A stretch of DNA of 64,000 bases from Shouchella hunanensis (lineage in GTDB: Bacteria; Bacillota; Bacilli; Bacillales; Bacillaceae_D): assembly GCF_028735875.1 (NCBI RefSeq), contig NZ_CP117834.1, positions 3,708,001 to 3,772,000 on the forward strand. Reading direction: 5' to 3'. The position numbers and the translations under genes are program-made. The notes beneath the pieces were generated by a model. That model was given only the letters and a program-made list of their open reading frames with translations, had not been told where the DNA came from and searched no databases. Positions within the stretch are counted from its first letter, which is position 1; the number at the start of each line of letters is the position of its first letter. This document shows positions 1,971-51,790 of the stretch, piece by piece.

Positions 1971-2988
1971 GTTTTATCCCTCTCTTCTTTGATTGCAGCG
2001 AGGTCAAATAAAGTTGTGATTGCCCATTTTCAATTGCCCGCCTTGCCTCTTCAACACCAACTTGAATAGAAGATACGTAATCACCTGCATACAACGCAAC
2101 ACCTGCATTAAACGCTACAATATTAGTTGCTGCTTGCGGAGCTTCATTCCGGAGTACCTGATGAATTAAAGCAGCACTCTCAGCAGGGGTTTGTACACGG
2201 ATGGATGCTAACGAACTACGGGTAAAACCAACATCTTCAGGCTTTATAGTATTGGCATGAATCTCATCTTGCTTCACATCAACAAGGTACGTTTCACCAT
2301 GAATGGCACATTCATCAAGTCCATCTGCACCACTAACAACAACGGAGTGGGTTGTACCGAGTCGTTGTAATACGTGTCCAAATTGATCAGCGGTTGCCCG
2401 GCTATTTACTCCTACTAACTGGTGTTTTGCACCAGCTGGATTTGTTAACGGTCCTAAAAGATTAAAAATACTTCGAAAGCCTAGCTCTTTTCTCGTTTTC
2501 ATTACGTGTTTCATAGAAGGATGATACAAAGGAGCAAACATAAAGCATAGTGACTGCTCTGTTAGCATATTTGCTGCTTCCGTCACCGATGTTTGAATAT
2601 CAATATTAAGCGCTTCAAACACATCTGCACTTCCTGTTTTTGAAGACACAGAACGATTTCCATGCTTCGTCACAGGTATGTTCATTGATCCAAGAACAAT
2701 TGCTGTTGCAGTGGAAATGTTAAAGGTACCAAGCCCGTCACCACCTGTTCCACATGTATCAATTGTCCGTTCTAGATGAATAGGAAATGGTTCAGCCATT
2801 CCCCGCATTGCCCGCGCAAAGCCAACAAGTTCATCTGTTGTTTCTCCTCTAAATCGGAGCAACGTCATAAAGCTAGCAATCTGGCTATCTGCTAATCGCC
2901 CATGCATGATTTCGCCCATAAGCAACTCTGCTTCTTGTTCACTTAATGTACCATTGTCTAAGCAGCGGTGTAACATCGCTTTAATCAT
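1963..2988 (-). CDS. trpD: Anthranilate phosphoribosyltransferase
   Basis: Transfers phosphoribosyl from PRPP to anthranilate. The family motifs DTCGTGGDG and KHGNRSVSSKTGSAD are present, as is the FLFAPLYHPSMKHV-type stretch (here CFMFAPLYHPSMKHV). I start it at the ATG ending at 2988 (341 residues) because AGGTG lies six bases upstream; an in-frame ATG 14 codons earlier lacks a ribosome site. The start overlaps the end of a 60-codon ORF that sits where trpE is expected. Anthranilate supply therefore depends on a TrpE encoded elsewhere or on uptake, which is an inference. Confidence 0.95.
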   Translation of the reverse strand: MIKAMLHRCLDNGTLSEQEAELLMGEIMHGRLADSQIASFMTLLRFRGETTDELVGFARAMRGMAEPFPIHLERTIDTCGTGGDGLGTFNISTATAIVLGSMNIPVTKHGNRSVSSKTGSADVFEALNIDIQTSVTEAANMLTEQSLCFMFAPLYHPSMKHVMKTRKELGFRSIFNLLGPLTNPAGAKHQLVGVNSRATADQFGHVLQRLGTTHSVVVSGADGLDECAIHGETYLVDVKQDEIHANTIKPEDVGFTRSSLASIRVQTPAESAALIHQVLRNEAPQAATNIVAFNAGVALYAGDYVSSIQVGVEEARRAIENGQSQLYLTSLQSKKRGIKHA

Positions 2989-3163
2989 GGCATACACCTG
3001 CATTTCGGATAAGGTGATCCCTACATACATAATAAAAACGAGACATAAAATTGGATAAAGGAATAACAGAAGGATGAAGCATTGTCGACTTTTGCTTACC
3101 GATTTGCTTCTTACGTGTTGTGCGTTTAATTACTTGAACATTAAGGGGATTTATTTTCTTCAT
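2981..3163 (-). CDS. 60-residue ORF in the trpE position, possible trpE remnant or leader peptide
   Basis: The ORF starts at ATG 3163 with a strong ribosome site (AAGGAG, ten bases upstream). Its stop lies inside the first codons of trpD, so it would be translationally coupled. It is the first start codon after the TRAP leader, the place normally taken by trpE. The product is basic at its N-terminus (KRTTRKKQIGKQK), has no tryptophan codon, and matches no family I recognise; I see no anthranilate synthase motif. It could be a remnant left by an internal trpE deletion or a small peptide needed to load ribosomes at trpD. Function unknown. Confidence 0.5.
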   Translation of the reverse strand: MKKINPLNVQVIKRTTRKKQIGKQKSTMLHPSVIPLSNFMSRFYYVCRDHLIRNAGVCHD

Positions 3164-3280
3164 TTACCACTCACTCCTTGTGATGTGAAAATGAAGAGCG
3201 GTTGGAGGATTGACGCATCTCCAAATACATTTATAGGAAGGGTTCTTTACTTCGTCTACATTCTCTCCGCTCTGCTCATT
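3164..3280 (-). promoter_or_regulatory. trp leader competing structures, predicted ribosome-site switch
   Basis: The leader RNA segment at 3280-3267, the 3' part of the TRAP site, can pair with 3201-3190 over 7 + 5 base pairs with a two-base bulge. The same distal strand (3202-3196, ACCGCTC) can instead pair with 3172-3166 (GAGTGGT, one G-U), between the Shine-Dalgarno and the start at 3163. TRAP binding would block the first pairing and favour the second, hiding the start. This mirrors the known B. subtilis trpE Shine-Dalgarno-blocking hairpin. The pairings are seen in the sequence; the switch is inferred. Confidence 0.55.
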
Positions 3281-3315
3281 CTCAACTAATCTCTACTCTA
3301 AACTCTACTCATCTA
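3256..3315 (-). promoter_or_regulatory. TRAP (MtrB) binding site, eleven (G/U)AG triplets
   Basis: Read on the minus strand, the leader contains UAG-AU-GAG-UA-GAG and continues with further UAG/GAG triplets, most separated by two or three bases. Eleven can be counted from 3315 to 3256, although two spacers are longer (four and six bases). This is the classic binding surface for the eleven-subunit tryptophan-activated TRAP ring, whose gene mtrB lies at 11218-11439. The site begins roughly eight bases after the predicted transcription start. Confidence 0.88.
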
Positions 3316-3330
3316 ATCTTGCTTGCACGT

Positions 3331-3359
3331 AGTCTAACGCAAAAAACCACTGACGTCAA
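3331..3359 (-). promoter_or_regulatory. Sigma-A promoter of the trp operon
   Basis: TTGACG (3359-3354), a 17-base spacer and TAGACT (3336-3331) lie just downstream of the aroH stop codon. Transcription would start near 3323, directly before the TRAP repeats. An internal trp promoter inside the aro supra-operon is also the B. subtilis arrangement. Confidence 0.75.
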
Positions 3360-3370
3360 CCCATTATCAC

Positions 3371-3739
3371 CTAGCCCTTTTGCAAGAGGTCTGGACGAAG
3401 CGTTATCGCCTCATTTAAGAAAGTATGACGAACATCTCGCTGATCCTGCTCCGTGTGAGCCGTCATCATAATCCGAATACAACGCGACAAACTTCCTTTC
3501 ACAGGTATTTCCTGAGCGCACATAACTGGTACGAAATCAAAACCATTTAAATGACGTAAAGCTTTAGCTGGGAAGCAAGCATCAATGTCGTTTGTTACGG
3601 TAACAAGCACTTGCGCAATTTGTTCAGGCTTAATGTCATTATCCGCTACCATTTTTCGGAGCAAGCGCTCGGTCTCACGTTCAATTTCTGCTGCTTCATT
3701 TTTTTCAACTGTCGTCGCCCCACGAATGCCTCGCATCAT
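3371..3739 (-). CDS. aroH: Chorismate mutase, AroH class
   Basis: Monofunctional chorismate mutase that rearranges chorismate to prephenate for phenylalanine and tyrosine synthesis. At 122 residues it matches the B. subtilis AroH trimer type. It begins MRGIRGATTVE with the active-site arginine, and carries AQEIPVKGSLSRCIR with the active-site glutamate and arginine, and LRPDL near the C-terminus. It follows aroB after two bases and precedes the trp promoter, so it closes the aroC-aroB-aroH unit. Either of the first two ATGs could be used. Confidence 0.95.
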   Translation of the reverse strand: MMRGIRGATTVEKNEAAEIERETERLLRKMVADNDIKPEQIAQVLVTVTNDIDACFPAKALRHLNGFDFVPVMCAQEIPVKGSLSRCIRIMMTAHTEQDQRDVRHTFLNEAITLRPDLLQKG

Positions 3740-7667: not shown

Positions 7668-8639
7668 TTAATACTTCCGTCGACCTATATAAGCAGCAAC
7701 CTGCTTTAAATGGGTCTTCGCCTCGCAATTAGGAAATTCATTAAGCAACGCATATGCTTTGCTTAAGTAGCGATCACTTAAGTCTTGGGCATATTCAATT
7801 CCGCCAGAGTTGCGTACGTCATTCAAAAACGGTTCCATCGTTATCGTTTTAGCTGTTTCTTTCGTCAATTCTTCTCTAAGCTTTTCTTTAAACGATGGAT
7901 TCGTATCCATAGCATATAATGCAGGAAGCGTTACATTCCCTTGACGTAAATCCCCGCCAGCTGGTTTTCCTAACTGTTCTTTCGTGCCTACAAAATCTAA
8001 TATATCATCCATTATTTGATAAGACATTCCGAGGAAATAAGCGAAATAATACATTTGTTGTTGGAGCTCTTCTTCTACATCAGCTGCAATAGCACCTAAC
8101 TGAGAGCTAACTGCAATTAAAAGAGCTGTTTTTCGTTTAATCCGTCTAAAGTATGTGCGAATGGTTTGATCCCAGTTATACTGATCTCGAATTTGTTCGA
8201 CTTCGCCAAGACACATTTGATGCATTGCATCCGAAATGATCACATGCACACGCTTATCTTGAAACGCTTTCGTTGTTTCAATTGCGTGTCCAAAAATATA
8301 ATCTCCCGTATACATGGCAACACGGTTATCCCATCTTGCCATAACCGTTTCATTTCCTCTTCTTAATGAAGCATTATCAATCACATCGTCATGAACTAAA
8401 GAACCCATATGAATTAACTCTAATGATGCAGCGATATGCTTTAACTTCTCTAAATCGTAGTTTCCAAACTTTCCAGCCAAAAGAACAAGAACTGGGCGAA
8501 TTCTTTTACCACCCGCCTTTAAGAGATCAGTCGACGCTTCGTTTAAAACTGGGTGTTTAGCTGAAAGCGTACGTTCCAGTATGGATTCAATGTATTCAAT
8601 ATCGGTTTGAAACTCTTTATATATTTCTGCTAACTTCAT
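7668..8639 (-). CDS. hepT: Heptaprenyl diphosphate synthase, large catalytic subunit
   Basis: Builds the C35 isoprenoid side chain of menaquinone-7 together with HepS. The first aspartate-rich motif is LVHDDVIDNASLRRG, and the second is YQIMDDILDF, followed by GKPAGGDLRQGNVTLP. The start at 8639 (323 residues) has AAGGGTGG upstream and matches the family length; a TTG 31 codons earlier would place its ribosome site too close. It ends the hepS-menG-prenyltransferase-hepT operon. Confidence 0.95.
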   Translation of the reverse strand: MKLAEIYKEFQTDIEYIESILERTLSAKHPVLNEASTDLLKAGGKRIRPVLVLLAGKFGNYDLEKLKHIAASLELIHMGSLVHDDVIDNASLRRGNETVMARWDNRVAMYTGDYIFGHAIETTKAFQDKRVHVIISDAMHQMCLGEVEQIRDQYNWDQTIRTYFRRIKRKTALLIAVSSQLGAIAADVEEELQQQMYYFAYFLGMSYQIMDDILDFVGTKEQLGKPAGGDLRQGNVTLPALYAMDTNPSFKEKLREELTKETAKTITMEPFLNDVRNSGGIEYAQDLSDRYLSKAYALLNEFPNCEAKTHLKQVAAYIGRRKY

Positions 8640-8811
8640 GAACGCCACCCTTATGCAGCCTAAAAGTCTGCTCGTTTTATAAATGGTTTTTTCTTCTTTC
8701 TCACTAGTGAAGGTTATACGGGATGGTTGCAATCACCTCAAAATCGATGCTATTCACATGATAGAGGCAGGTTATTTCATTCTTTTCTAAACGTCTTCGT
8801 CAGCTAGCTTC

Positions 8812-9699
8812 CTAAAAAAAACGTAGCAACAGCATATCGACAAAAGCGAAGGCAAACAGCATGACGGAAAGCGTGCCATTCATTGGAAAAAAGGCCAGTT
8901 GCACTTTAGATAAATCATCTTTCTTCACTATGGAGTGCTGATAAATCATAATAATGCCTGCGACAAGAACGCCGATTAAATAAAGCCAACTAAGTGGAGA
9001 ATAGAAAAAGAGTAAAACAAAAAAAAGAAAACTTACAACGTGAAAGCCCCTCGCAATTAAAAGCGCTTTCGCGACCCCAAAGCGACTTGGAATTGAATAC
9101 AATCCGTTTGAAGCGTCATAGTCGGCATCCTGAGTGGCATAAACGGTATCAAAACCAGCTAACCAAAAAAGGACGGCACCGAACAATAACATTGGCATCA
9201 ATGATAGTTCACCTGTAACGGCTACCCAGCCACCAAGTGGTGCAATCCCAATTGTCACACCAAGTACGACATGGCATAACCATGTAAATCGTTTCGTGTA
9301 AGAGTAGAATACGAGAAAAAATACAGCAATTGGCAATAGATAAACAGATAACAGGTTAAGATTAAACGCAGCAAGGAAAAGAAGGGCAAACGATACGGCA
9401 ATAAAGATCCATACATCTGCTTTTGAAAGTAATCCAGCTGGTATTTCACGATTCGCTGTTCTTGGATTATGTTTATCGATTGTAGCGTCAATCACACGAT
9501 TTAACGACATCGCTGCACTTCGAGCCCCGATCATTGCAATCGTCACCCAAAACCATTGTACAAACGTTGGAAAGTGTCCGTTCATTACGAGACTACCTAA
9601 TAACATGGCAAAAAAAGCAAATGGAAGGGCAAAAATCGTATGTTCGATTTTTATCATTCGCATAAATGTTTTTGTTTTTGATCCTACTGCTGTTCCCAT
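8812..9699 (-). CDS. UbiA-family polyprenyltransferase, MqnP/UbiA-like
   Basis: Integral membrane prenyltransferase of 295 residues with about eight hydrophobic segments. It carries both metal-binding motifs: NRVIDATIDKHNPRTANREIPAG near 66-88 and DADYDASNGLYSIPSRFG near 190-208. The NPRT...REIPAG form is typical of UbiA/MqnP (4-hydroxybenzoate or futalosine-pathway type) and not of MenA. It lies between menG and hepT, so it very likely attaches the HepST prenyl chain to a menaquinone precursor. Which precursor cannot be read from the sequence. AAGGAG lies nine bases before the start. Confidence 0.85.
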   Translation of the reverse strand: MGTAVGSKTKTFMRMIKIEHTIFALPFAFFAMLLGSLVMNGHFPTFVQWFWVTIAMIGARSAAMSLNRVIDATIDKHNPRTANREIPAGLLSKADVWIFIAVSFALLFLAAFNLNLLSVYLLPIAVFFLVFYSYTKRFTWLCHVVLGVTIGIAPLGGWVAVTGELSLMPMLLFGAVLFWLAGFDTVYATQDADYDASNGLYSIPSRFGVAKALLIARGFHVVSFLFFVLLFFYSPLSWLYLIGVLVAGIIMIYQHSIVKKDDLSKVQLAFFPMNGTLSVMLFAFAFVDMLLLRFF

Positions 9700-9714
9700 T
9701 AACGAAAACTCCTT

Positions 9715-10431
9715 CTACGAGTCCTTTTGCGGCTTTTGTCCTAAGTGCATAGAGGCAACACCGCCAGTATAACTCTTTACTTCAACGTTTATCATGCCTG
9801 CTTCACGAAACATACTGGCTAACTTCTCTCGGTTAGGAAATTCTAACGTTGATTCATGTAACCACGCGTATTCATCGTATTTTTTAACTAACAGTTTGCC
9901 AGCAAGAGGCATGACATGTTTAAAGTAAAAGAAATAGAGTTGTTTAAAACCTGGAATCGTCGGCTGAGATGTTTCCAGACACACAATCCTTCCACCTGGC
10001 TTCGTTACACGAACCATTTCCTTCAGGACTCGCATATAATCCGGCACATTTCGAAGCCCAAACCCAATTGTGACATAGTCAAACGTATTTTCTTCGAACG
10101 GTAAATCCATAGCGTTCCCCTGAATCAGTTCAATGTTTTTTACGCCGTATTGCTTTACTTTTTCTTTTCCAACTTCTAGCATGTTTTCACTAAAGTCCAG
10201 ACCAACTACCCGTCCATCGTCTCCAACAGCTTCACTTAAAGCAATGGACCAATCAGCTGTTCCACAGCAAACATCTAGAGCAGAATCGTTTTTTTGAACA
10301 GCCATTCGTTTCATCGTATCTTTACGCCATGCTTTATGCCGTTGCAAACTAATGACAGAGTTCATCATGTCATATCTCTTATGAATAGACTGAAAAACGC
10401 TATGTACGCGCTCTTCCTTAGACTGACTCAT
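9715..10431 (-). CDS. menG: Demethylmenaquinone methyltransferase
   Basis: Last step of menaquinone synthesis, C-methylation with SAM (UbiE/COQ5 family). SAM-binding motif I is [15 protein letters not shown] (about 52-66), followed by [22 protein letters not shown] and [16 protein letters not shown]. The start at 10431 (238 residues) has GGGAGG eight bases upstream and overlaps the hepS stop by ATGA; an in-frame start six codons upstream lies inside that ribosome site. Confidence 0.96.
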
Positions 10432-11129
10432 GTTGTAAGCCTCCCACAAAAAAACTGATCGAGAATATCATTACGTTGGCTATTAAGAAGTGGCTGTAAT
10501 GATTGCTCAGCTCGAACAAGCATCGTGCGTAACACATTGGTTTCTTCTTCATCAACGGTCGTTCGTAACTGCCTCTTGACTCTTTTCGTTAAAAAGAACG
10601 TTTCAAGTCGCTTTACGAACGTTTCGTCAGCCTCTTTTTGAATAATTCTTAGTAAAAGCAAAGCATCGACTGCTGCTTTTTGATCATAGAATGCCTTTGC
10701 TGTTAACGACTTGTCCATGTAATGAGCCATTTTCAATTCATAAATCTCTTGAAGTGTGCTTCCAAATAACTCAACCATATCGACTGCATTCACGCCTGCT
10801 AACGATTGATAGTAACGAGCACTATAAAAATCCCCAGCCAGAACATTTAGCTGCCTTCTCTTTTTCAGACGATCGTCGTCCTCATTATGTAAAGAAACAA
10901 GATCATGAATCATGACACCAGCATGAACAAAGCCCCAAGCCAACGATATGGCCAGAGCTCGTTCTCCTGGCTCCACTTCACGAATGAGTTGGTAAGCAAG
11001 CCACAATTCATCTTGATCCGGTCGCGTGTCGTCAATATATTGTTGTAAATAATCATGTCGCACGAGTTGGTCAAAATGCTGTTTTAATTCAGTAGCAGTT
11101 GAAATATCGACCGCTCCTTTTTCTCTCAT
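10428..11129 (-). CDS. hepS: Heptaprenyl diphosphate synthase, small subunit
   Basis: Non-catalytic partner of HepT that is needed for chain elongation to C35. The family is poorly conserved; visible landmarks are [29 protein letters not shown] and [15 protein letters not shown]. It has no catalytic aspartate motifs, as expected for component I. Its length (233 residues) and its place between mtrB and menG match B. subtilis. AAAGGAAAG precedes the ATG. Confidence 0.9.
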
Positions 11130-30689: not shown

Positions 30690-30794
30690 ACATTTCTCTT
30701 ATCTTGCAGAATACTGCTGGATTTAGCACCTTGCCTATAAGGCTGGTTGCTGAGACTTCACAGGGCCATATCCCTCCGTCTCTCTTGATAAGAT
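30690..30794 (-). ncRNA. SAM riboswitch (S-box) of the metI-yitJ-metH operon
   Basis: The minus strand carries the S-box core: CTTATCAAGAGAG at the 5' side of P1, GGAGGGA-GGCCC, then GAAGTCTCAGCAACC, GGCAAGGTGCTAAATCC, and a closing GATAAG. These conserved blocks are in the right order and spacing. It should switch off the methionine operon when SAM is abundant. Confidence 0.95.
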
Positions 30795-47002: not shown

Positions 47003-47250
47003 AACTGAATCGTTTAAATACAATGATGAAGAGATGACAAGAAAACGGTTGATGCAGAGAGCTGATGGTTGGTGAAAATCAGTGAGGCCTTCTTGAATAG
47101 CACTTCTGAGTAGGCTTATCGAACAAGAGTAGATAAGTTCCGGGATCTCCGTTATGAATTGAGTTATGTAAAAGGTATTTACATAAATGAGGGTGGTACC
47201 GCGCTAAATCGCCCCTCACAGCTTTCAATGGAAAGCTGTGTTTTTTTTTA
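47003..47250 (+). ncRNA. T-box leader of serA with apparent serine specifier
   Basis: The T-box bulge motif GGTGGTACCGCG (47192-47203) is clear. The apical stem I signature AGAGAG...GGTTGGTGAAAATC and a later AGAGTAG/CCGGG stem II-III region are also present. GAAT-AGC at 47095-47101 places AGC (Ser) as the likely specifier, in keeping with the gene. The terminator is ACAGCTTTC / GAAAGCTGT (47218-47239) followed by nine T residues. Uncharged tRNA-Ser should allow read-through into serA. Confidence 0.9.
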
Positions 47251-51599: not shown

Positions 51600-51654
51600 C
51601 ACATTGCTACTTTTAACAATGGTTCTTTAGTCCGCGAAAGAATTTACGTTCTAC

Positions 51655-51790
51655 ATTACGGCAGGTCTTCTGACTTATACGAGTGCGTATTTACAGTGGC
51701 GGGTCCGTGCTAGATTTTCACTAGCTTCCCCTGTTAGACAGCGCTTAGGCTGTATCCGTAACGACGTTATTGGTTTCTTTTAGACTACCA
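51655..51790 (-). ncRNA. Cobalamin riboswitch
   Basis: On the minus strand the B12 box reads AGTCAGAAGACCTGCC (51675-51660). Upstream are GCCACTG, the AGGGGAAGC-type core (CAGGGGAAGCTAGTGAAAATC) and CGGATACAGCC. These blocks are in the standard order. It should repress btuC-btuD-pduO when adenosylcobalamin is plentiful. Confidence 0.94.

Follow-up and report, generated by a model that had tools for sequence, protein, structure and literature searches.

Loss of trpE from a TRAP-type trp operon in one Shouchella clade, and a short open reading frame that may relay ribosomes to trpD

In Shouchella hunanensis, the trp operon has a leader of the TRAP type that is followed by a 60-codon open reading frame (ORF) in the place of trpE. 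Our comparison of related genomes shows that one Shouchella clade has lost trpE from the operon and has kept the leader as well as the start and stop signals of the gene. The reading that we favour, with a probability of roughly 0.7, is that the ends of trpE have been retained as a translated relay, and that TRAP would control trpDCFBA by translational coupling through this relay. Translation of the ORF, its coupling to trpD and the binding of TRAP are all inferred. A more far-reaching scenario seems to us somewhat better than an even bet: selection would have pared the enzyme gene down to an ORF that does nothing but deliver ribosomes, with its start under TRAP, its stop on trpD and its inside drifting. 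The whole TRAP network would have been rewired at the same time, in that a single fused gene, which brought in a TRAP leader of its own, took over anthranilate synthase and its glutaminase, and pabA lost its site.

The DNA analysed here, the window, is a stretch of 64 kb that covers 3.708-3.772 Mb of one 4.06-Mb contig. The order on the minus strand is aroC, aroB, aroH, leader, 60-codon ORF, trpD, trpC, trpF and trpB. With the exception of trpD, these gene names are putative and are based on position and sequence features; this applies to aroC and aroB, to aroH directly upstream of the leader (3371-3739), and to trpC (1203-1970), trpF (577-1206) and trpB (2-580, truncated by the window edge). 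As the preliminary description had it, the ORF (3163-2981) starts with ATG and ends inside trpD (2988-1963, ATG at 2988): its TAA lies 8 nt into that gene, within the overlap ATGATTAA, and a stop/start overlap of this kind is expected of a translationally coupled pair. A longer trpD frame with 3030 as the start was rejected, as it is not open in the related genome G004, and 2988 was retained as the start. trpD keeps a ribosome site of its own, AGGTG; the predicted accessibility of this site varies among the genomes, and trpD might start alone. Anthranilate synthase component I had been reported as missing, and indeed no chorismate-binding domain (PF00425) was found in the 64-kb window; trpE is absent from the operon.

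The genus provides the evidence that an enzyme gene belongs at this site. Twelve of the 13 Shouchella genomes carry trpD; the sole exception, G003, has a genome of 2.6 Mb and is also without an mtrB match. In eight of the 12, trpE (about 498-501 codons) lies between leader and trpD, and in the other four, i. e. the S. hunanensis genome G000 as well as G002, G004 and G009, a short ORF of 60, 60, 62 and 61 codons, respectively, is found there. These four genomes form one clade by both TrpD and AroH, so that one loss of trpE suffices. The arrangement aroH-leader-ORF-trpD matches the aroH-leader-trpE-trpD of the sisters, and the ORF shares its first codons, ATGAAG, with their trpE genes. Moreover, the same overlap of 8 nt joins trpE to trpD in G005, G008 and G012 and the ORF to trpD in G000, G002 and G004; in G009, the ORF overlaps trpD by 11 nt. 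That trpE was removed by an error of assembly or sequencing, a point on which the preliminary description had looked to sister strains, is extremely improbable: the arrangement is common to four assemblies, and all four have the fused enzyme TrpEG that is presented below, so that this explanation was rejected. In the draft genome G008, the trpE frame looks broken near its start (locus L074, near 1470), and the listed ORF has 476 rather than about 500 codons; this is perhaps a sequencing error.

Position, start and stop of the ORF are those of a trpE remnant, whereas its inner part lacks the corresponding similarity. The ORFs of G000 and G002 are identical, which leaves three distinct sequences, and local alignments of these, whole and inner part, with six of the eight trpE genes never beat the best of 100 shuffles (0 of 36); six of the 36 exceeded the 95% level of the shuffles, and one tied with the best of 100. 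We therefore rejected the idea that the inside of the ORF is a clear piece of trpE. We see no convincing match; a clean internal deletion is not supported by these alignments, and a faint relic of trpE may persist. Thus, of the internal trpE deletion that had been suggested at first, the loss of the gene with start, stop and leader kept is supported by the sisters, and the derivation of the inner ORF from trpE is not.

The promoter, the TRAP site of eleven triplets and the start switch of the earlier account were all recovered on the minus strand. The sigma-A-type promoter TTGACG-17-TAGACT (3359-3331) is the only promoter-like site in 2900-3450, where shuffles average 1.4, and a TTGAC-type site is present at the equivalent place in the sister leaders. 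The TRAP-type site (3315-3256) consists of 11 G/TAG triplets with steps of 5, 5, 5, 5, 7, 5, 6, 5, 5 and 9 nt; eight of the ten steps are 5 or 6 nt, and the site corresponds to the about 11 G/UAG repeats with spacers of 2-3 nt that characterise a TRAP leader. Within it, the anti-hairpin segment GAGAATGAGCAGAGCGG (3283-3267) can pair with 3201-3187, i. e. with the switch segment CCGCTCTTCATTTTCAC (3201-3185), and the computed energy of this duplex in G000 is -18.6 kcal/mol. The alternative partner of the switch segment is the start of the ORF, the Shine-Dalgarno sequence AAGGAG and first codons ATGAAGAA (3179-3155), which forms the right arm of a predicted start-codon hairpin; here, TCTTCAT pairs with ATGAAGA, and GGAG is mostly in the loop (-17.4 kcal/mol, computed for G000). 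This pairing of UCUUCAU with AUGAAGA in the RNA explains why the first codons of the ORF are conserved. The three leader patterns, of which the third is loose, are kept in all 12 Shouchella trp operons. At gathering scores, Rfam placed no element in the operon leader nor in three TrpEG loci. Elsewhere in the window, it reported a T-box leader (47014-47219, plus strand), a SAM riboswitch (30696-30794, minus strand) and a cobalamin riboswitch (51643-51775, minus strand).

The regulator itself is encoded in the window by mtrB (11439-11218, minus strand; PF02081, E 6.5e-39), and in a phmmer search its product matched solved TRAP chains such as 3zzl_A (E 7.7e-35). The TRAP protein of G000 ends in GTMDTDEE. 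For the TRAP of B. clausii, 12-mers have been suggested as possible (PMC3184956), and a possible 12-mer would fit the at least 12 triplets that some Shouchella leaders show when loose spacing is allowed in the count.

In the relay that we propose, the anti-hairpin within the TRAP site would tie up the switch segment at low tryptophan. The start region would be freed, ribosomes would initiate on the ORF, and upon reaching its stop inside trpD they would restart on trpD; ribosomes on the message would also keep Rho off. At high tryptophan, TRAP would cover the triplets, and the switch segment would fold onto the start region and close the start codon, which would turn off the ORF and trpD along with it. 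No intrinsic terminator was found in the four ORF leaders, and nothing terminator-like in 2900-3450. Thus, TRAP would have no obvious hold on trpD without the ORF: what the TRAP-type site can control is initiation on the first ORF, and the translation of trpD must be linked to this ORF for TRAP to matter. Since a terminator was found in only two of the eight trpE leaders (G005 and G008), the ORF clade is not unusual in lacking one. A trp operon that begins with a short ORF also brings to mind a leader peptide like trpL that senses tryptophan by ribosome stalling; this can very nearly be dismissed, as the ORF lies downstream of a TRAP-type leader, overlaps trpD and has no terminator-like site in its neighbourhood, and attenuation of this type was rejected because none of the three distinct ORFs contains a Trp codon.

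According to the folding models, the weak point of the proposed relay is the operon switch itself. In the three distinct ORF leaders, folded together with 12-30 coding nucleotides, the predicted probability that the start codon is unpaired is 0.00 with the TRAP site blocked versus 0.02-0.51 with the site free. In equilibrium folding of G000 without TRAP, this value falls from 0.25 to 0.22 and 0.02 with 12, 20 and 30 nt of coding sequence, respectively, and with 60 nt it is 0.01 in G000, 0.05 in G004 and 0.40 in G009. The GGAG of the ORF is about 0.75 unpaired in both states. The start hairpin of G000 is thus favoured and largely closed at equilibrium with or without TRAP, so that the switch would need folding during transcription.

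From the ORF start to the trpD start, the distance is 175 nt in G000, 181 nt in G004 and 175 nt in G009, hence ORF and trpD stand in the same relative frame in all three. Under dinucleotide shuffles, the probability of an open frame is 0.02-0.04 for each of the three sequences, and in simulations of neutral drift a single copy stays open in 6-57% of the runs, by distance; with three related sequences, this test of openness is modest. Between G000 and G004, dN/dS is 0.44 for the ORF, 0.06 for trpD and 0.12 for aroH, and strict neutrality of the ORF has a P of 0.03 without transition bias and of 0.07-0.16 with it. The peptide has diverged much more quickly than the products of the neighbouring genes, and that of G009 aligns poorly with the others; in G009, most of the inner bases have been replaced, and frame, stop position and length are nonetheless kept. 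These data are suggestive of selection on the open frame, and they point to weak or no constraint on the peptide encoded by the inner ORF. An openness that is kept and a peptide that is nearly free is the pattern that a relay would show, and the peptide would then probably be a by-product.

It might be argued instead that the product of the ORF, a small basic peptide, has a function of its own, for example in tryptophan control. The net charge is positive in all three peptides (+10, +8 and +9), exceeding the shuffles in one of them (P 0.021; 0.13 and 0.15 in the others), and a dN/dS below 1, with P 0.03-0.16 under the neutral null according to the transition bias assumed, would agree with such a role. 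We regard this as unlikely given the rapid divergence of the peptide, its lack of a match in NCBIfam and of a meaningful one in Pfam (best E 0.27), and the start hairpin, the pairing of which accounts for the conserved first codons.

With trpE missing from the operon, the enzyme should be sought elsewhere, as had been envisaged in the preliminary description along with a search for TrpE/PabB homologues. The Pfam search of the G000 genome revealed two chorismate-binding proteins: one is PabB-like (1.61 Mb, C1:1610620) and is followed by genes for PabA and for a PabC-like protein, and the other is a fused, unlinked TrpEG (0.88 Mb, 884421) with the domains PF04715 (TrpE N-terminal), PF00425 (chorismate-binding) and PF00117 (glutaminase). 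The latter scores 925.8 bits against TIGR01815 (cut-off 739.15) and 1006.6 bits against NF010081 (PRK13566; cut-off 645). Above the curated cut-off, TrpEG is found in four of the 13 genus genomes, and these are exactly the four ORF genomes; the same four are the only ones among 41 genomes of the family, and in wider samples it was counted in 17 of 397 genomes of the order and in 16 of 398 genomes of the class. As all ORF genomes have TrpEG, the auxotrophy that had been considered as the meaning of the missing trpE is not indicated and was rejected, and the best explanation is that TrpEG replaced TrpE. The relatives of Shouchella TrpEG in the class are 50-56% identical to it, and in an unrooted tree it groups with four genomes of other families in the class (100/100). 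Its patchy presence and this placement suggest that it was gained horizontally. The same Pfam search gave no third candidate that might be MenF. Genes in 7668-10449 of the window resemble those for UbiA/MenA, polyprenyl synthase and UbiE/MenG; with no third chorismate-binding protein and such genes present, the synthesis of menaquinone may follow a different pathway.

The fused gene seems to carry a tryptophan switch of its own, again of the TRAP type. The best triplet chains in its leader have eight (G000), ten (G004) and nine (G009) members, and the triplets upstream of TrpEG exceed all 500 dinucleotide shuffles in all four genomes of the ORF clade, the leaders of G000 and G002 being nearly one sequence. 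When the genus was scanned for five exact triplets, G000, G002, G004 and G009 each gave two places, the operon leader and the TrpEG leader; the reversed pattern, used as a control, matched 2, 2, 1 and 1 times, in G000 as often as the pattern itself, so that the scan cannot decide the matter by itself. In folds that include 12-30 coding nucleotides, the Shine-Dalgarno sequence of TrpEG is predicted to be 0.00-0.02 unpaired when the triplets are blocked versus 0.48-0.76 when they are free; with 60 nt, the site of G009 does not close (0.38 free, 0.60 blocked). A hairpin at this site forms in 11 of 11 segments, which were picked by eye for a common motif and folded singly; they include distant TrpEG leaders, and the loop is flanked by C-G pairs in some segments and by A-U pairs in others. 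This recurrence suggests that the leader probably dates back as far as this branch of the TrpEG gene and was gained along with it. Between TrpEG and a divergent CobW-type gene (L076, 4416-4430) lies a 7-1-7 inverted repeat, TCGTAATGATTACGA, which resembles the Bacillus Zur box; G009 lacks the repeat at its TrpEG locus (L079) and has a different gene as the neighbour there.

The old glutaminase partner shows the opposite trend. In B. subtilis, TRAP reportedly also blocks the ribosome site of trpG (= pabA), a finding credited to Yang et al. (1995) and Du et al. (1997). From -75 to +3 of pabA, 6-11 triplets are present in all eight trpE genomes, as opposed to 0, 0, 2 and 3 in the four ORF genomes; the count for G001 is that of the copy at L029, and the second pabA-like gene of this genome (L048) has few triplets at its start. 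In a strict control (densest stretch, shuffled 300-nt segments), the triplets pass in five of the eight trpE genomes, four of them close relatives, and fail in G005, G008 and G012. G507 (L144) was left out of the pabA comparison set, and so were the upstream counts of G641 and G682, whose loci were cut differently; the 59% identity of G682 refers to a partial protein. The contrast is suggestive of the loss of a TRAP site at pabA in the ORF clade, and it fits because TrpEG has its own glutaminase.

The split of trpEG from trpDCFBA recurs in Bacilli outside Shouchella. In the class sample, TRAP is present in all 15 of the remaining genomes that have TrpEG, versus 272 of 398 in the whole sample (raw counts across related genomes). 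In ten of 14 of these other genomes (G045 was left out), the strict-chain triplets upstream of TrpEG pass the shuffles at P <=0.02. No trpE adjoins trpD in 13 of the 15, G114 and G099 being the ones that keep it, and in most of the 13, as read by eye, the leader contains triplets as well as a hairpin followed by a run of U, and it leads directly into trpD. Even by loose criteria, a small ORF ending close to the start of trpD is missing from nine of the 13; the other four show ORFs by these criteria. By this comparison, Shouchella differs from most other trpE-less TrpEG genomes by keeping the ORF. In G325 (L122, 1343-1504, reverse complement), a 53-codon ORF with a Shine-Dalgarno sequence follows a terminator-like hairpin and ends 13 nt inside trpD; it is possible that this is an independent relay, and such ORFs also arise by chance.

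These genomes bear on a further explanation, i. e. that the Shouchella ORF is decaying debris with a frame that has not yet been broken, and that trpD starts on its own site. The nine genomes that manage without such an ORF, the AGGTG site retained by trpD and the weak or absent constraint on the inner ORF would all agree with it. We nevertheless consider it rather unlikely, since three diverged sequences have preserved their frame with respect to trpD, the position of the stop and their length though the inner bases of G009 have been largely replaced, and since the start switch is intact, though it is able to act on trpD only through the ORF.

If the relay exists as proposed, it would be a natural version of the classic test for translational coupling, with the enzyme gone and the control parts kept, and what evolution has kept would show which control parts matter. 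Likewise, the tryptophan-sensing network would have been re-addressed after an acquired enzyme replaced the native one, with control gained on the new gene and lost on pabA. As three Shouchella species have the ORF and several do not, clean comparisons are possible. Among the literature matches listed, judged by title and the opening of the abstract, there was neither a TRAP-controlled remnant of trpE nor a TRAP-controlled TrpEG; articles by Gutierrez-Preciado et al. (2005 and 2007, Trends in Genetics) may bear on this question.

Among the closest known systems is the trpEDCFBA operon of B. subtilis, in which TRAP is said to control the translation of trpE and in which trpE and trpD are reportedly coupled (credited to Du & Babitzke 1998 and Yakhnin et al. 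2001). The Shouchella operon shares with it the TRAP-type site of 11 triplets, a predicted hairpin at the start site, a first ORF that overlaps trpD, and mtrB; it differs in that this first ORF is a 60-codon remnant, that no leader terminator was found, and that anthranilate synthase is unlinked and fused. As for the coupling of trpE and trpD, an overlap of 29 nt is given for B. subtilis (PMC4538822), and the case of E. coli is on record in a review (PMC12548453). The same review describes short ORFs that lie upstream of a gene and supply it with ribosomes; unlike these, the Shouchella ORF occupies the place of an enzyme gene and has a TRAP-type switch ahead of its own start. The Shouchella TrpEG has the same domains as the TIGR01815/NF010081 family, and what sets it apart from this fused family is a leader with TRAP-type triplets and a hairpin over the Shine-Dalgarno sequence, together with its part as the replacement of a lost operonic trpE. 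Finally, in Exiguobacterium chiriqhucha, trpEG is apart from trpDCFBA, and one type of tryptophan control serves both (PMC5399880, excerpt). Shouchella likewise has a separate trpEG and probably the same kind of control on both units; the control is exerted by a T-box in E. chiriqhucha, for which the excerpt mentions no remnant ORF, and would be of the TRAP type in Shouchella, with the remnant ORF as the proposed link to trpD.
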